DNA of 56,465 bases from a virus. Shown piece after piece: positions 5,076-50,671 of this stretch. The notes below the pieces were generated by a model, which did not search any database, had not been told where the DNA came from, and worked only from the letters and a program-made list of their open reading frames with translations. The translations under genes were made by a program, and so were the position numbers. How positions within the stretch are numbered: the stretch's first letter is position 1; every line of letters starts with the position of its first letter. The stretch lies in IMG/VR virus record IMGVR_UViG_3300049459_000108, positions 1 to 56,465 of that record, one strand, 5' to 3'.

Positions 5076-5336
5076 ATGAAAGCACCGGTCATGAACATCA
5101 GCTTCGTGGAGTATCCCGAGCCGAAGCGCTGGACCTCGGACGGTGGACGACTCCACTGGGTGGCTTACGGGGACGTTGTGGTGACGTGCTCCGAACACGG
5201 GGAAGTGGGCCGGACTCTTGCAACTTCCAGCCTCGCCAAGGAATACCCCTGGTACGAGGGGAACGCCGTGTTGGCACAGGACAACCACATGTGGTTTGAC
5301 CACGGCATAGCCCAAGGCCATCACCGCCGTGACTGA
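5076..5336 (+). CDS. hypothetical protein
   Basis: 86 residues from ATG 5076, after TAAGGAGAGTC. A small beta-rich protein (FVEYPEPKRW, VVVTCSEHGEVG) with a His-rich end (HMWFDHGIAQGHHRRD). No recognised family. Its last eight bases overlap the start of the Lsr2-like gene at 5329. Confidence 0.6.
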   Translation: MKAPVMNISFVEYPEPKRWTSDGGRLHWVAYGDVVVTCSEHGEVGRTLATSSLAKEYPWYEGNAVLAQDNHMWFDHGIAQGHHRRD

Positions 5337-5661
5337 GCCTGACCCGGAGTTGGTTCGGGAATTCATGGTCGCCTCTCGACTGAGAGAGCCAGGGGATAGG
5401 CGTGCAGTGACTCCCCCTGAAGTGCGCTTCTTCAATGCGTACTACCCAGCGCACTTGGAACGAGAGCGACGCGAGACCGAACGGCAGGCCCAGCAGGAGG
5501 AGTTGGCCCGTCGATGCCGCGAGTCTGCGGAGAAGCGGGCGCATCAAACCTGGCTCATGCGCGACATGCGCGAGTGGGGCCGAGAGAACGGCTTTTTCGT
5601 TGGCACGCGGGGCCGTATCCCGCGGAAGGTAATCGACGCCTACAAGGAGGCAAAAGGATGA
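5329..5661 (+). CDS. Lsr2 C-terminal-type DNA-binding protein
   Basis: 110 residues from GTG 5329, overlapping the previous gene. The last ~35 residues (MREWGRENGFFVG and TRGRIPRKVIDAYKEA) match the Lsr2 DNA-binding domain pattern: xIRxWAxxNGxxVSxRGRIPxxVxxAYxxA. That includes the Arg-Gly-Arg hook that enters the minor groove of AT-rich DNA in actinobacterial Lsr2. The N-terminal ~70 residues are acidic/basic mixed and helical and do not look like the Lsr2 oligomerisation domain. The protein may silence or counter-silence AT-rich DNA, or compete with host Lsr2. Family assignment is firm for the C-terminus; the role is inferred. It overlaps the next gene by ATGA. Confidence 0.8.
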   Translation: MTEPDPELVREFMVASRLREPGDRRAVTPPEVRFFNAYYPAHLERERRETERQAQQEELARRCRESAEKRAHQTWLMRDMREWGRENGFFVGTRGRIPRKVIDAYKEAKG

Positions 5662-5996
5662 CGCACTCGCACATGGCTATCGGACTGATCCCCGACAACT
5701 TGGTCAACCTGACGGTGGTTGTCTCTTGGACGCCGACGGAGAAGGAATACACGATCACGCTCCTGAACGCGGACGGCAAGGCGACGGGGGAGTACGAGGC
5801 CAACGGGGGAGAGCCCTTCGGGTACGAACCGACCTTCCTCGACCTCGACATGAGCGTCTACCTCGGGCTCAAGTCCTTCCACCCGCGTACGGCCCGACTC
5901 GCTCAGTCGCTCGCTGGCTTCAGCTACTTCGAGTGGATCAACCCTGCCGCGATGTCGAGCAAGGACCGCGCGAAGTACATGGAGGCCGCCAAGTGA
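5658..5996 (+). CDS. hypothetical protein
   Basis: 112 residues, with ATG 5658 overlapping the preceding TGA and GGAGGCAAAAGG upstream. The first ~45 residues look like beta strands (NLTVVVSWTP, EYTITLLNADG), then a helical end (SSKDRAKYMEAAK). It sits between the Lsr2-C-like and Lsr2-N-like genes. No recognised family. Confidence 0.6.
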   Translation: MTHSHMAIGLIPDNLVNLTVVVSWTPTEKEYTITLLNADGKATGEYEANGGEPFGYEPTFLDLDMSVYLGLKSFHPRTARLAQSLAGFSYFEWINPAAMSSKDRAKYMEAAK

Positions 5997-6229
5997 GTGC
6001 GATGGACACCTTCTACCTTGACGCTGCTCTGGTCGCTGACCGTGCGGCGGACGCTGCCGCGATACCGAACCTGTCCAAGAGCCTGGCCCGCCTGACGAGC
6101 GTCTTCGAGGACTGCGGCCATCTGGCCGGCGCCTACTACTGCCCGGAGAAGGTTGCTGGCCTCCTGGTGTCCCATGTCGTCGAGGAGTACCAGGCTGGCC
6201 GTCGAGCTCTGGTCGGTAGTTCCACCTGA
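5993..6229 (+). CDS. hypothetical helical protein
   Basis: 78 residues. I prefer GTG 5993 over ATG 6002 because GGAGG at 5981-5985 is correctly spaced and the GTGA overlap couples it to the previous gene. The product is helical and Ala/Leu-rich, with two Cys. No family is recognised. A terminator follows. Confidence 0.55.
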   Translation: MSAMDTFYLDAALVADRAADAAAIPNLSKSLARLTSVFEDCGHLAGAYYCPEKVAGLLVSHVVEEYQAGRRALVGSST

Positions 6230-6246
6230 GTCGAGTGCATTTAGTG

Positions 6247-6275
6247 AGGGCCGGGAATTCGTTTCCGGCCCTTTG
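6247..6275 (+). terminator. intrinsic terminator
   Basis: An 11-bp stem AGGGCCGGGAA with TTTCCGGCCCT around a tetraloop, ending in TTT, between the 6229 stop and the next gene. Confidence 0.7.
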
Positions 6276-6327
6276 CCATGGGCGCTCGGAGAGCGTACGG
6301 ACAATTCTTCTAGAAGGGGTACATGCA

Positions 6328-6516
6328 ATGGCGCGAAAGGTAATCGAGACAGTGTGGTGCGACGCCTGTGCAAAGAAGGGTTTGGAAGTCGTGGGAACCG
6401 TGACGCTCACGATCATGGACGACCGATACGACCTGTGTGACGAGCACGGGAAGCGGTTCAGGGATCAGCTTGCCGCCGCCCTGGCCCCGTCCCTTGACGC
6501 CGCGCTGTCCGCATAA
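6328..6516 (+). CDS. Lsr2 N-terminal-like protein with CxxC (putative)
   Basis: 62 residues from ATG 6328 after AGAAGGGG. It begins MARKVIETV, continues with a strand-turn-strand that includes TVTLTIMDDRYDLC, and ends in a helix (KRFRDQLAAAL). This order and the start resemble the N-terminal dimerisation domain of Lsr2, which begins MAxKV, carries a xYxIDL strand and a LRxxL helix. An added CDAC and CDEH quartet could bind zinc, as in some actinophage Lsr2-like proteins. The resemblance is moderate. The DNA-binding half is encoded separately at 5329-5661. Confidence 0.5.
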   Translation: MARKVIETVWCDACAKKGLEVVGTVTLTIMDDRYDLCDEHGKRFRDQLAAALAPSLDAALSA

Positions 6517-7854: not shown

Positions 7855-8103
7855 ATGCAGAACGGAAAGAAAGACGGCACTCTCATCCGACCCTCAAAGC
7901 GGGTCGAGGAGTGGGAGACCGTTGATGACATCGAGACCGCGAAAGAGCGCGTCAAGTATTGGGCGGAGTTCTTCACGGAGAAGGGTTTCGGGAAGCGCTT
8001 CGGTTTCTGGCACGAGGCGAGCCCTACGGGGCACAAGGTACTGCTGATAGACCGCTCGATCCCTGAAGACGACAACCCGAAGAGCAAGGGGAAAAAGAAA
8101 TGA
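7855..8103 (+). CDS. hypothetical basic protein
   Basis: 82 residues from ATG 7855, two bases after the previous stop. It has a helical middle (AKERVKYWAEFFTEKGFGKRF) and a Lys-rich end (PKSKGKKK). Its ATGA overlap with the next gene at 8100 couples the two. No recognised family. Confidence 0.65.
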   Translation: MQNGKKDGTLIRPSKRVEEWETVDDIETAKERVKYWAEFFTEKGFGKRFGFWHEASPTGHKVLLIDRSIPEDDNPKSKGKKK

Positions 8104-9662
8104 CCACGACCATCCGTGTCCCCGGACAGATCCGCCGCCACGTCCTGAAGGCCGGGGAGTCCAACTCCTCCCAGCCCGGTTGGGTGGACCTCTACGCGGC
8201 CTGCCTGGCAGGCGACAGAGAGTTGAAGCGGCAGGGGATGAACACGCTCAACACGATCGAGCTGCACCTGACGAACGCCGCCATCGGGTCGGCCCTCGAC
8301 ATCGCCCGTGACTGGCTCAACGACGACAACGGCAACAACGTCATGGCGGGTAAGTCGATGCTCAAATTCGAACTGGAGTACGAGCCGGACGACCCGCGCG
8401 AGATCCGGCACGAGATCAAGATGCCGAAGAGCATCGCGGGATACTTCGAGCCCAAGTACGGGCAGCCGTCCCCGTACAAGAACGAGTCCGATGTCATCGA
8501 GACCGACATGGATCGCCTGCATTGGGTGAGCAACGGCGCTCACGGCCGGGTCCGTACCGAGACGCTGGGGTTCATCCTGACCAAGATGGACCGGATGAAG
8601 TACCACGACCACTCGGCCGTGGCGCGGGCCGCGAAGAAGTTCGTCGACACCTTCACCGAGCCGTACGAGGCGACTCAGCGGCTCATCACCGGGTACCTCT
8701 CGATGGATGAGGACCAGGCCCCGGACTTCACCGAAGCAATTCACGGCCTCGATGGCGAGCCCGAGGAGCCGAAGCGTCTGGTCGTGATCGCCTGCGGCGG
8801 GAAGAAGTCGGAGAGGCCGGAGAAGATTCCGGCTGAGCAGCGCTACATCGGGAACTACTTCACGGCCTGCCTGTTCGCCGCTGAAGTGATGGACGGCCCC
8901 ACGATGGTGCTCAGTGCTCTGCATGGTCTTATCCCTCTGAGCAAGGAGATCGGGCCGTACGACATCACCTTCGGTGATCGAAGGGCAGTGCGGGAAGACG
9001 TGCTGAAGCAGCAGGCGGAAGAGTTGGGTCTCCTCGATGCCAAGGTGACGATCCTTGGTGGGGAGAAGTACGTGAAGGCGGTTCGGCAGATCTGGCCGGA
9101 CGCGGAAGCGCCGCTGAAGGGCGGCATAGGGCAGCAGCTCAAGCAGCTCGCCGGGATGTACGCGGGCGAGGTCCTGGAGGACGACGAGCGCCAGGAGCAG
9201 GAGCCTGATGAACTCCCGGAGCGGGCCTATCAGACCAAGCTCCAGGAGGTTGGCTACCTCCCTCACCGCAACCAGCCGAAGCCGCGGGTGCTCTGGTTCG
9301 GAGGCAAGGCCGGAAAGGCGAATCCGAAGCCGGGCCGGTGGGTGAAGGCTGAAGTGATCTACACCGGTGAGGGCAAGTACGCCATCAACCGACTCGGCAC
9401 CGATGACGAGCTGATGACGGGCACTCTGCGGTCTCTGATCCACTGGGGACCGCTGGAGGACCCCAACTCCGAGCGGAAGCCCGAGTTCGTGAAGGAATTC
9501 GAGCAATGGGATGAGGAGCCCGAGACCGTTGAAGAGGTGGTGCCGGCGGGCGAGTACGAGGTGCCTGAGAACTGGCTCGAACTGGCTCAGGAGGGCAACA
9601 CGGACGCGGCTAAGGCGTACTGGACGCGCCGCTGCGACGAGTACAGAAGGACCGGTAAGTGA
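8100..9662 (+). CDS. large protein with central DUF6884 / YaaA-like domain
   Basis: 520 residues from ATG 8100. Residues ~226-352 form a recognisable DUF6884-like domain: RLVVIACGGKKS, then a Y.GNYF.AC helix, VLSALHGLIPL, PYDITFG, VTILGGEKYV and a final QQLKQLAGMY. These motifs resemble the YaaA/DUF328 fold. The N-terminal 220 residues hold an alpha/beta region rich in Asp/Glu; the C-terminal 150 residues are charged, with an SH3-like piece (PKPGRWVKAEVIYTGEGKYAI). DUF6884 proteins are common in actinobacteria and their phages and their activity is not established. It is one of the two largest products of the accessory operon and the last large one. Confidence 0.65.
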   Translation: MTTTIRVPGQIRRHVLKAGESNSSQPGWVDLYAACLAGDRELKRQGMNTLNTIELHLTNAAIGSALDIARDWLNDDNGNNVMAGKSMLKFELEYEPDDPREIRHEIKMPKSIAGYFEPKYGQPSPYKNESDVIETDMDRLHWVSNGAHGRVRTETLGFILTKMDRMKYHDHSAVARAAKKFVDTFTEPYEATQRLITGYLSMDEDQAPDFTEAIHGLDGEPEEPKRLVVIACGGKKSERPEKIPAEQRYIGNYFTACLFAAEVMDGPTMVLSALHGLIPLSKEIGPYDITFGDRRAVREDVLKQQAEELGLLDAKVTILGGEKYVKAVRQIWPDAEAPLKGGIGQQLKQLAGMYAGEVLEDDERQEQEPDELPERAYQTKLQEVGYLPHRNQPKPRVLWFGGKAGKANPKPGRWVKAEVIYTGEGKYAINRLGTDDELMTGTLRSLIHWGPLEDPNSERKPEFVKEFEQWDEEPETVEEVVPAGEYEVPENWLELAQEGNTDAAKAYWTRRCDEYRRTGK

Positions 9663-49081: not shown

Positions 49082-50671
49082 TTACGCCGCGTCCTCTTCG
49101 TGCCACACGATCTCGATGAAGGCAGGGTCCCACCGCTTACCCCGCCCAACCGGGTGGATGATCACTGACCTGATGCTCTGAAGGAGGCGTGTCCGCCTCT
49201 CAGGCATGGACAGGTTCTTCCAGTCCGCCAGGGCATCGGGAGAGAGTAGCTTCTTCTGCTTCTTCTGAAGCGTCAGCTTCCCGCGCTTGGTCTGAAGCTC
49301 TGCCCGCTCGGTCTCAAGCTCTTCGATCGCGTCGAGGGACTGGCCCATCGAGATGCGCTTGTCCTTGCGACGCTCCCGGACGTCATCCATCTCCTTGGCG
49401 ATCTCGGCCAGGCGTGCGTCATGGATCGTCTCGTCGATCTCCTCGGCAGCCTTCTCGACCGCATCACCAAGCCCCTCACGAGTCCCCAGGAGGAAGGCAG
49501 ACTCAACGAGGTCATCGACGGGCGGCCCAACCCGTGTAACGCCTCCACATCCGCCCTGTGTGTTCAGGCAGGCGTACCGGAAGCCGTAACGGTCGAAGTT
49601 GGGGGTCCCCCTCGTGTAGGGGTTCGGGTACATCGCGGTGAGGCACTTACCGCACCGGGCGATGCCTGAGAGGAAGTGCTTCGCGCTGGTGTCGTGCAGC
49701 TCCTGCTTGCCACCCTTGTTCGCCTCCTTGCGCCGCTTCAGCTCGTTGACGCAGGCCCAGTACTCATCGGGAGTGCATGCACTGTCCCAATCACCCCTGA
49801 CAGGGTTCCCCTCAGAGTCGAGAACGACATAGTCAGGGAGCCACAGGCGGCCGGCACTTCGCCTCTCGTCCTGAGGGGCGTACATGCGGAAGCCAGCGTT
49901 GCGGGGATTCGTGAGGATCGCCTCTGCGGCACTGTGCTGGATCTCCCGACGTCCCTCACGGGATCGCTTGGTCTTCCGGGGCTCGTAACCGAACTCCATG
50001 AGGTCACGGCGGAAGGTTCCGACTTTCAGGCCGCCAGGGACGGCCCGGATCGCCTTGAGTAGGAACGGGTGCTCTGTCTCGTGCAGAGTCTTACGGTCCT
50101 CGTTCCACCCGAAGGGGCGCGGTGCTCCATGCATGGCGCCCTTGTAGGCGATGCGGCGGTTCGTGCGGCTCGTTCGGCGCTTGATGTTGCCGATCTCCAT
50201 GTTGCCCATGGTGGCCTGCATGACGAACATGCCGCGGCCTTCGATGGTGGAGAGATCGACGCTGCCCTCTACGGATCGGCCGATGTAGCTGGGGTTCATC
50301 TCGAAGACGCGGCAGATGCGGGCCGCGTCGTACACGAGACGGGCCAACCGGTCGGAGTGAAGGAAAAGAATCCCCTTGATCACTCCCGCTTCGAGGTCCT
50401 TCAGCATGGCCTCAAAGTCGGTCCGCTCGATGAACGGATCGGAGGCCGGCGTGTCGTTGTCGCAGTAGTCGCGGACGACAGCCGCGCCCTTACGAACCAG
50501 CTCGGGATCATGCTCGACGAGGAAGCGGATCGCTTGCTCTTGTTCCTTGACTTGCTCCTGGACCTCACGCCATGAGGACTGCACTCCGGCTAGGGCCTTG
50601 TCGAAGCTGACGCGGCGGTACATCCCGAGGGGGATGCAGGTGTCCGATACGACGTGTTGGAGGACTACCAA
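49082..50671 (-). CDS. int: large serine integrase
   Basis: 529 residues from TTG 50671 (AGGGA ten bases upstream); an ATG at residue 17 would leave too short a lead before the catalytic region. The resolvase domain has Ser22 in MYRRVSFDK, the acidic DNDTPASDPF loop and the Arg-rich ILFLHSDRLARLVYDA. A recombinase domain follows (ILTNPRNAGFRM), then a zinc ribbon (ARCGKCLTAMYP; ACLNTQGGCGG) and a coiled coil near residues 415-485. It catalyses attP x attB integration without host factors. An operator overlaps its upstream region, so it is probably repressed in the lysogen. Confidence 0.93.
   Translation of the reverse strand: MVVLQHVVSDTCIPLGMYRRVSFDKALAGVQSSWREVQEQVKEQEQAIRFLVEHDPELVRKGAAVVRDYCDNDTPASDPFIERTDFEAMLKDLEAGVIKGILFLHSDRLARLVYDAARICRVFEMNPSYIGRSVEGSVDLSTIEGRGMFVMQATMGNMEIGNIKRRTSRTNRRIAYKGAMHGAPRPFGWNEDRKTLHETEHPFLLKAIRAVPGGLKVGTFRRDLMEFGYEPRKTKRSREGRREIQHSAAEAILTNPRNAGFRMYAPQDERRSAGRLWLPDYVVLDSEGNPVRGDWDSACTPDEYWACVNELKRRKEANKGGKQELHDTSAKHFLSGIARCGKCLTAMYPNPYTRGTPNFDRYGFRYACLNTQGGCGGVTRVGPPVDDLVESAFLLGTREGLGDAVEKAAEEIDETIHDARLAEIAKEMDDVRERRKDKRISMGQSLDAIEELETERAELQTKRGKLTLQKKQKKLLSPDALADWKNLSMPERRTRLLQSIRSVIIHPVGRGKRWDPAFIEIVWHEEDAA

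Follow-up and report, generated by a model that had tools for sequence, protein, structure and literature searches.

Is the two-domain protein Lsr2 encoded in two pieces by a phage, and if so, what are the pieces for? This question is raised by positions 5,329 to 6,516 of the viral record IMGVR_UViG_3300049459_000108, which was analysed at its full length of 56,465 bases (the window) and comes from a Streptomyces-type phage whose closest named relative is Streptomyces phage Ponzi (PQ723756). A sequence-only reading had proposed that Lsr2 is split here into an N-like and a C-like gene. The products of these genes are referred to below as P1 (the 5329 product, 110 residues) and P2 (the 6328 product, 62 residues). 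Both Lsr2-type domains are indeed encoded separately, and the chances are about equal for and against the overall interpretation favored here, namely that P2, an Lsr2 N-module of the zinc type, is part of a module built around a DUF3987 helicase, for which the DNA-binding half is supplied in various ways.

The two Lsr2-type domains

It is practically certain that P1 carries an Lsr2 DNA-binding domain. Its residues 79-108 match the Pfam family PF23359 (Lsr2_DNA-bd), for which the cut-off is 26.9 bits, with 43.2 bits (E=2.4e-11; 44.3 bits in a scan of the whole record), over profile positions 8-37 of 37 and with the RGR loop kept. In an AlphaFold (AF2) model with a mean predicted local distance difference test (pLDDT) value of 90, helices are formed by residues 6-15, 29-86, and 99-109, and the sole confident match of this model in the PDB is the C-domain of Lsr2, 2KNG (probability 1.00, 54% identity, root-mean-square deviation (rmsd) of 1.4 over 35 columns). 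No other Lsr2 DNA-binding domain is found in the 56-kb record. Full-length homologues of P1 occur in 11 other distinct elements, the DNA-binding domain being the most conserved part (76% mean identity vs 47% for the whole protein). One of the homologues (L014, 6834-7244) has RGC instead of RGR in its loop, a possible loss of minor-groove binding as far as can be read from the sequence.

Ahead of this domain P1 has no Lsr2 N-domain: a short helix is followed by helix 29-86, which runs into the DNA-binding domain. The long helix, 40-56% charged with weak heptads in 12/12 aligned homologues and with many i,i+4 salt bridges, resembles a rigid single helix more than it does a coiled coil. A role of this helix as a coiled-coil dimerizer was considered and, with heptads this weak, is unsupported.

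Regarding P2, homology to the Lsr2 N-domain is very probable in the light of profile comparison, of bridging zinc-type Lsr2 proteins, and of an AlphaFold model. Its top Pfam match is the Lsr2 dimerization domain PF11774, colinear from residues 1-50 to profile positions 1-49, and the same family is the top match, below threshold, for 7/15 P2 homologues (best E=0.0027). Aligned with hhalign to a diverse Lsr2 N-domain profile, the P2 profile reaches 34.0, or 28.7 if the most divergent member is left out. For comparison, 200 column shuffles give 9.3 +/- 1.9 (maximum 16.8), and none of 20 unrelated neighbour families exceeds 14.2; a chance likeness was rejected on these controls. When the N-domains are taken from zinc-type full-length Lsr2, the score rises to 45.2 (probability 96%), and it is still 37.4 when the common start is trimmed. 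The AF2 model of P2 (pLDDT 88.9) has strands at residues 25-29 and 32-36 and a helix from residue 38, and the PDB entry that it matches first is 4E1P, the dimerization domain of Lsr2 (template modelling score 0.57/0.63). Separately, the family of the neighbouring 5076 gene aligned with the P2 profile over 11 columns centred on a CSEHG motif; this was not taken as homology.

Several observations weigh on the other side. The score of P2 itself for PF11774 is below the curated cut-off (13.8 vs 29.6 bits, E=0.047). Trimming of the common N-terminal residues lowers the score with plain Lsr2 to 17.7, a value still higher than the controls, though not by much, part of the plain-Lsr2 signal being due to these residues. 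The Foldseek E-value of the P2 model against 4E1P is non-significant (1.5), and the second match, the zinc HNH protein 5H0M, superposes on the model at lower rmsd.

The four ligands of the Cys/His quartet of P2 (CxxC...CxxH) are invariant in 15/15 homologues and are arranged in the AF2 model in the pattern of a treble clef, with a CxxC knuckle, a beta-hairpin, and the CxxH at the start of the helix. The Lsr2 structure 4E1P has itself been classified as a treble clef, solved in a form without zinc (Kaur and Subramanian, PMC4999995), and P2 looks like a ligand-bearing relative of it. Bridging full-length actinobacterial Lsr2 proteins have CxxC/CxxH or CxxH/CxxH ligands at the positions of those of P2. 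Such zinc-type ligands, complete or partial, were seen in full-length Lsr2 from actinobacterial genomes (L071-L076, L079-L081, L084, L086, L091, L099), and no description of full-length zinc-type Lsr2 was found in the open literature searched. With the Lsr2 N-domain classified as a treble clef whose known structure is zinc-free, and with zinc-type ligands also present in full-length Lsr2, the quartet need not have been added. P2 would then be a stand-alone zinc-type (treble-clef) Lsr2 N-domain, its zinc binding being predicted from sequence and model.

Both domain assignments of the sequence-only reading thus hold, the first through PF23359 and 2KNG, and the second, that the 6328 product follows the strand-helix order of the Lsr2 N-terminus, on grounds that this sequence alone could not have provided; the structure prediction proposed there as a check on the fold has been run and, with 4E1P as the best PDB match, albeit at a non-significant E-value, does not refute it. 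The quartet described there as added is present, and probably was not added. Neither protein is a complete Lsr2 with both domains in one chain, P1 matching only PF23359 and P2 only PF11774, the latter below threshold.

Fusions, distribution and synteny

The split between P1 and P2 is real, since related mobile elements encode the two halves as a single protein next to the same helicase-like gene. In 12 Streptomyces proteins (L058-L063 and L104 among them), a P2-type domain at the N-terminus is combined with an Lsr2 DNA-binding domain at the C-terminus of one chain, and most of these proteins have a BRCT-like middle region at or just under the Pfam cut-off. In the seven for which a wider context was read, the fused chain is found in the same slot, upstream of a DUF3987 gene. 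The fused protein of L058 resembles P1 in having a charged helix ahead of the DNA-binding domain, and upstream of its gene lies a homologue of the 5993 gene.

IMG/VR was scanned with the two proteins singly as well as with alignments, which yielded 15 further viral contigs; Ponzi was reached by a search of named phages. P2 is present in 16/16 of these records, including every contig that was found with P1. P1 is absent from Ponzi and from G010, and two contigs begin at P2, so that P1 cannot be judged in them. Among Streptomyces genomes, P2-profile matches at E<=0.01 were obtained in 19/296, the three weakest (L050-L052) being unrelated proteins; at E<=1e-4, matches were obtained in 4/395 genomes of the class, one of them a bridging full-length Lsr2. 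Strong homologues of P1 are rarer (1/296 Streptomyces genomes). A search of plasmids gave no match to P2.

In 27/27 tabulated elements, the P2-type domain is followed on its own strand by a DUF3987 gene, which in most of them comes immediately and in some lies a few hundred bases away. The locus likewise contains an Lsr2 DNA-binding domain in 27/27, as P1 in 14 (12 distinct), as full-length Lsr2 only in six, and fused in seven. These counts refer to related phages and prophages rather than to independent events, and most of the elements were found through the P2 domain. Full-length Lsr2 accompanies P1 in 6/14 P1 elements. In two Streptomyces elements the gene order is full-length Lsr2, P2, DUF3987, the Lsr2 protein directly upstream of the P2 gene having an extra C-terminal region of ~110 residues (L055, 7934-8770; L056, 7679-8455).

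Over 12 elements, P2 distances track DUF3987 distances (r=0.83). A strong hairpin is found upstream of P2 at a comparable place in 13/16 elements (it is absent in L005, L014, and L015), which suggests from sequence features that P2 begins a new transcript together with DUF3987. A scan called neither a sigma-70 promoter nor a T-run terminator between the genes, the hairpin of the window (6246-6273) being likewise uncalled. In the three elements lacking the hairpin, the P2 frame extends upstream into a domain of ~140 residues with no assigned family (L005, 7566-8183; L014, 7563-8177; L015, 7584-8186), so that either a protein of ~200 residues ending in P2 is made or two start sites are used alternatively. 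DUF3987 proteins are predicted helicases of mobile elements (PMC5862659), and a functional tie between P2 and DUF3987 is somewhat favored.

Readings of the module

In the interpretation preferred here, P2 would be a stand-alone zinc-binding dimerization or oligomerization domain of the Lsr2 type, a treble clef that has retained its CxxC/CxxH ligands, and would belong to one conserved module together with the product of the gene that follows, the DUF3987 helicase-like ATPase. This module would require two parts, a P2-type domain for oligomerization and a minor-groove DNA-binding domain of the Lsr2 type, the second part varying from one element to another: fused to the P2 domain, provided by a full-length Lsr2, or provided by P1, in which a long charged helix would replace the Lsr2 N-domain. 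As P1 has the sole Lsr2 DNA-binding domain of this phage, P2 would gather DNA-bound P1, or host Lsr2, on AT-rich stretches of the phage DNA to form a nucleoprotein complex. The DUF3987 ATPase may act on the complex thus gathered, during replication or in its control.

A number of findings do not fit easily with this scheme. P2 occurs without P1 in six elements, and G047 has a weak P1-like protein, a DUF3987 gene, and a full-length Lsr2 without P2. Once DUF3987 distances are accounted for, P1 and P2 distances are not correlated over 12 elements (partial r=-0.10, reached in 1554/2000 permutations); co-divergence of P1 and P2, which had been considered as a proof of pairing, was thus tested with a negative outcome. 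The DUF3987 protein need not be the main replicative helicase of the phage either, because Toprim-domain and DNA polymerase A genes of its own are located elsewhere in the window, in a block apart from P2 and DUF3987. Physical assembly of P1 and P2 is rated as doubtful. More speculative still is a bipartite zinc-dependent Lsr2, in which P2 and P1 would assemble on AT-rich phage DNA and link an Lsr2-type nucleoprotein to the DUF3987 helicase, and in which zinc or redox state could set silencing against replication. To our knowledge, no xenogeneic silencer made of two separately encoded pieces and coupled to a helicase has been described.

The alternative that survives best, while being less likely than the module scheme, is that P1 alone acts as a counter-silencer, occupying AT-rich sites without bridging them and thereby blocking the Lsr2 of the host or of a co-resident phage, and that P2 is a separate protein. 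The sequence-only reading had raised a possible role of the 5329 product as a dominant-negative of host Lsr2. The absence of an Lsr2 N-domain from P1, with a charged helix of the single-helix kind in place of a dimerizer, is in line with this, as are the full-length phage Lsr2 that accompanies P1 in 6/14 elements and the lack of P1-P2 co-divergence. Separated domains of Lsr2 or H-NS are known to antagonize silencing, e.g., an N-terminal fragment of CgpS (PMC7074111) and H-NST (PMC8612146); however, these antagonists are N-terminal fragments and not DNA-binding domains. In addition, P2 is present at 12/12 strong P1 loci retrieved with P1 as the only query, and other elements have both domains in one chain, which argues against P1 acting by itself.

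It is rather improbable that P2 is just a small zinc protein of the general treble-clef kind that works for the DUF3987 ATPase, has no functional link to Lsr2, and resembles the Lsr2 N-domain only through a common fold. Its constant synteny and co-divergence with DUF3987, as well as its matches to 5H0M and to a viral DUF7455-type protein, would be explained in this way, but neither the colinear profile match to zinc-type full-length Lsr2, far over the controls, nor the fusions to an Lsr2 DNA-binding domain would be expected.

Least probable is the obligate split protein of the sequence-only reading, in which P1 and P2 assemble into an Lsr2-like bridging factor: while single-chain versions exist in which the domain order and the genomic slot are the same (that of L058 even with a P1-like helix) and P1 and P2 are the only Lsr2-type domains in the window, the two do not co-diverge, an intact Lsr2 coexists with them in six elements, P2 is found without P1, and a conserved hairpin separates their transcription blocks. 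Of the properties expected from a split protein, fusion of the halves in relatives in the same order is observed, and constant co-occurrence with co-evolution is not. The proposal of separate N-like and C-like genes is therefore retained as regards the domains, whereas simple fission of an Lsr2 gene is not a sufficient account, in view of the coexisting intact Lsr2, the hairpin, and the co-divergence of P2 with DUF3987. Similarly, the idea of halves that assemble gains from the fused proteins in Lsr2 order, and obligate pairing fails in the tests that were run.

Surroundings, known systems and significance

The coordinates of the features are collected in Table 1. The two small genes announced by the sequence-only reading between the 5329 and 6328 genes were found and overlap by a few bases. 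Only weak two-copy repeats were seen when replication-origin repeats were looked for near these genes.

Table 1. Features of the P1-P2 locus and the integrase gene of the window.
Feature	Position	Strand	Evidence
P1, GTG start: short helix, long charged helix, C-terminal Lsr2 DNA-binding domain	5329..5661	+	
Lsr2 DNA-binding domain of P1; its GTRGRIP loop has RGR at ~5608-5616	5563..5652	+	PF23359, 2KNG match
Intervening small gene 1, homologue of Ponzi gp71	5658..5996	+	tblastn 51% identity; no Pfam family
Intervening small gene 2, homologue of Ponzi gp70	5993..6229	+	tblastn 39% identity; no Pfam family
Terminator-like hairpin, 12-base-pair stem, 4-base loop, short T run	6246..6273	+	RNA fold ~-23 kcal/mol
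P2, stand-alone homologue of the Lsr2 dimerization domain, putatively zinc-type; CxxC 6358-6369, CxxH 6436-6447	6328..6516	+	
DUF3987 helicase-like ATPase gene, constant neighbour of P2	6539..7852	+	PF13148 E=2e-19
Serine integrase (resolvase domain)	49085-50671	minus	

Other genes of the window encode a portal protein, a terminase, DNA polymerase A, a Toprim-domain protein, ribonucleotide reductase, and ThyX. The small gene preceding P1 (5076-5336) shares 96.5% protein identity with its counterpart in L007 (7748-8005); as this far exceeds the ~43-74% of the neighbouring genes, a recent exchange is suggested. A DUF6884-domain protein (8100-9662) has PADLOC matches to PDC-M57A and, weakly, to DpdC.

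With regard to known systems, P2 matches the N-terminal dimerization domain of M. tuberculosis Lsr2 (PF11774 and PF23359; 4E1P, 2KNG) in profile and predicted fold. Unlike that protein, the window has the domains in separate genes, with zinc ligands in a P2 that stays below the PF11774 cut-off, and with the long helix of P1 where Lsr2 has its N-domain. Full-length zinc-type actinobacterial Lsr2 (e.g., L073, L081) shares the ligand positions of P2; it differs from P1 and P2 in having both domains in one chain, and no tie to DUF3987 was seen for it in the data read. The Streptomyces fusions share with the window the domain types and the position upstream of DUF3987 and differ in being single chains of ~240-270 residues, usually with the BRCT-like middle.

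Each domain has also been found freed from the other in phages. In the fusion of Ku to an Lsr2 C-domain from mycobacteriophage cluster J (PMC8612146), an Lsr2 DNA-binding domain is, as in P1, separated from its N-domain and joined to another part; the partner there is Ku, a DNA-end protein, whereas P1 has only a helix. Microbacterium phage proteins such as Loca gp20 (ON260814) are, like P2, stand-alone Lsr2 N-domains (~70 residues), but they have a basic tail, no zinc ligands, and no DUF3987 among their annotated neighbours. Kumao gp4 and Anthony gp32, considered as stand-alone C-domains, both turned out to be full Lsr2 proteins. The direct homologue of P2 in Ponzi is gp67, annotated as hypothetical (67% identity) and located upstream of the DUF3987 homologue gp66; unlike the window phage, Ponzi has no P1 and encodes a full-length Lsr2 (gp63) 3 kb downstream of gp67. 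In the open literature, neither a split Lsr2, nor an Lsr2-BRCT protein, nor an Lsr2 associated with DUF3987 was found.

Taken together, actinobacterial phages and Streptomyces elements swap the two domains of Lsr2 as distinct pieces, and an Lsr2 N-domain with zinc ligands exists both alone and within full-length Lsr2. This fits the published view of the Lsr2 N-domain as a treble clef, solved in a zinc-free form, and supplies the missing relatives in which the zinc ligands are borne. The constant pairing with DUF3987 suggests that an Lsr2-type part takes part in the replication of mobile elements and, if the pieces assemble, they would constitute a natural two-component xenogeneic silencer.
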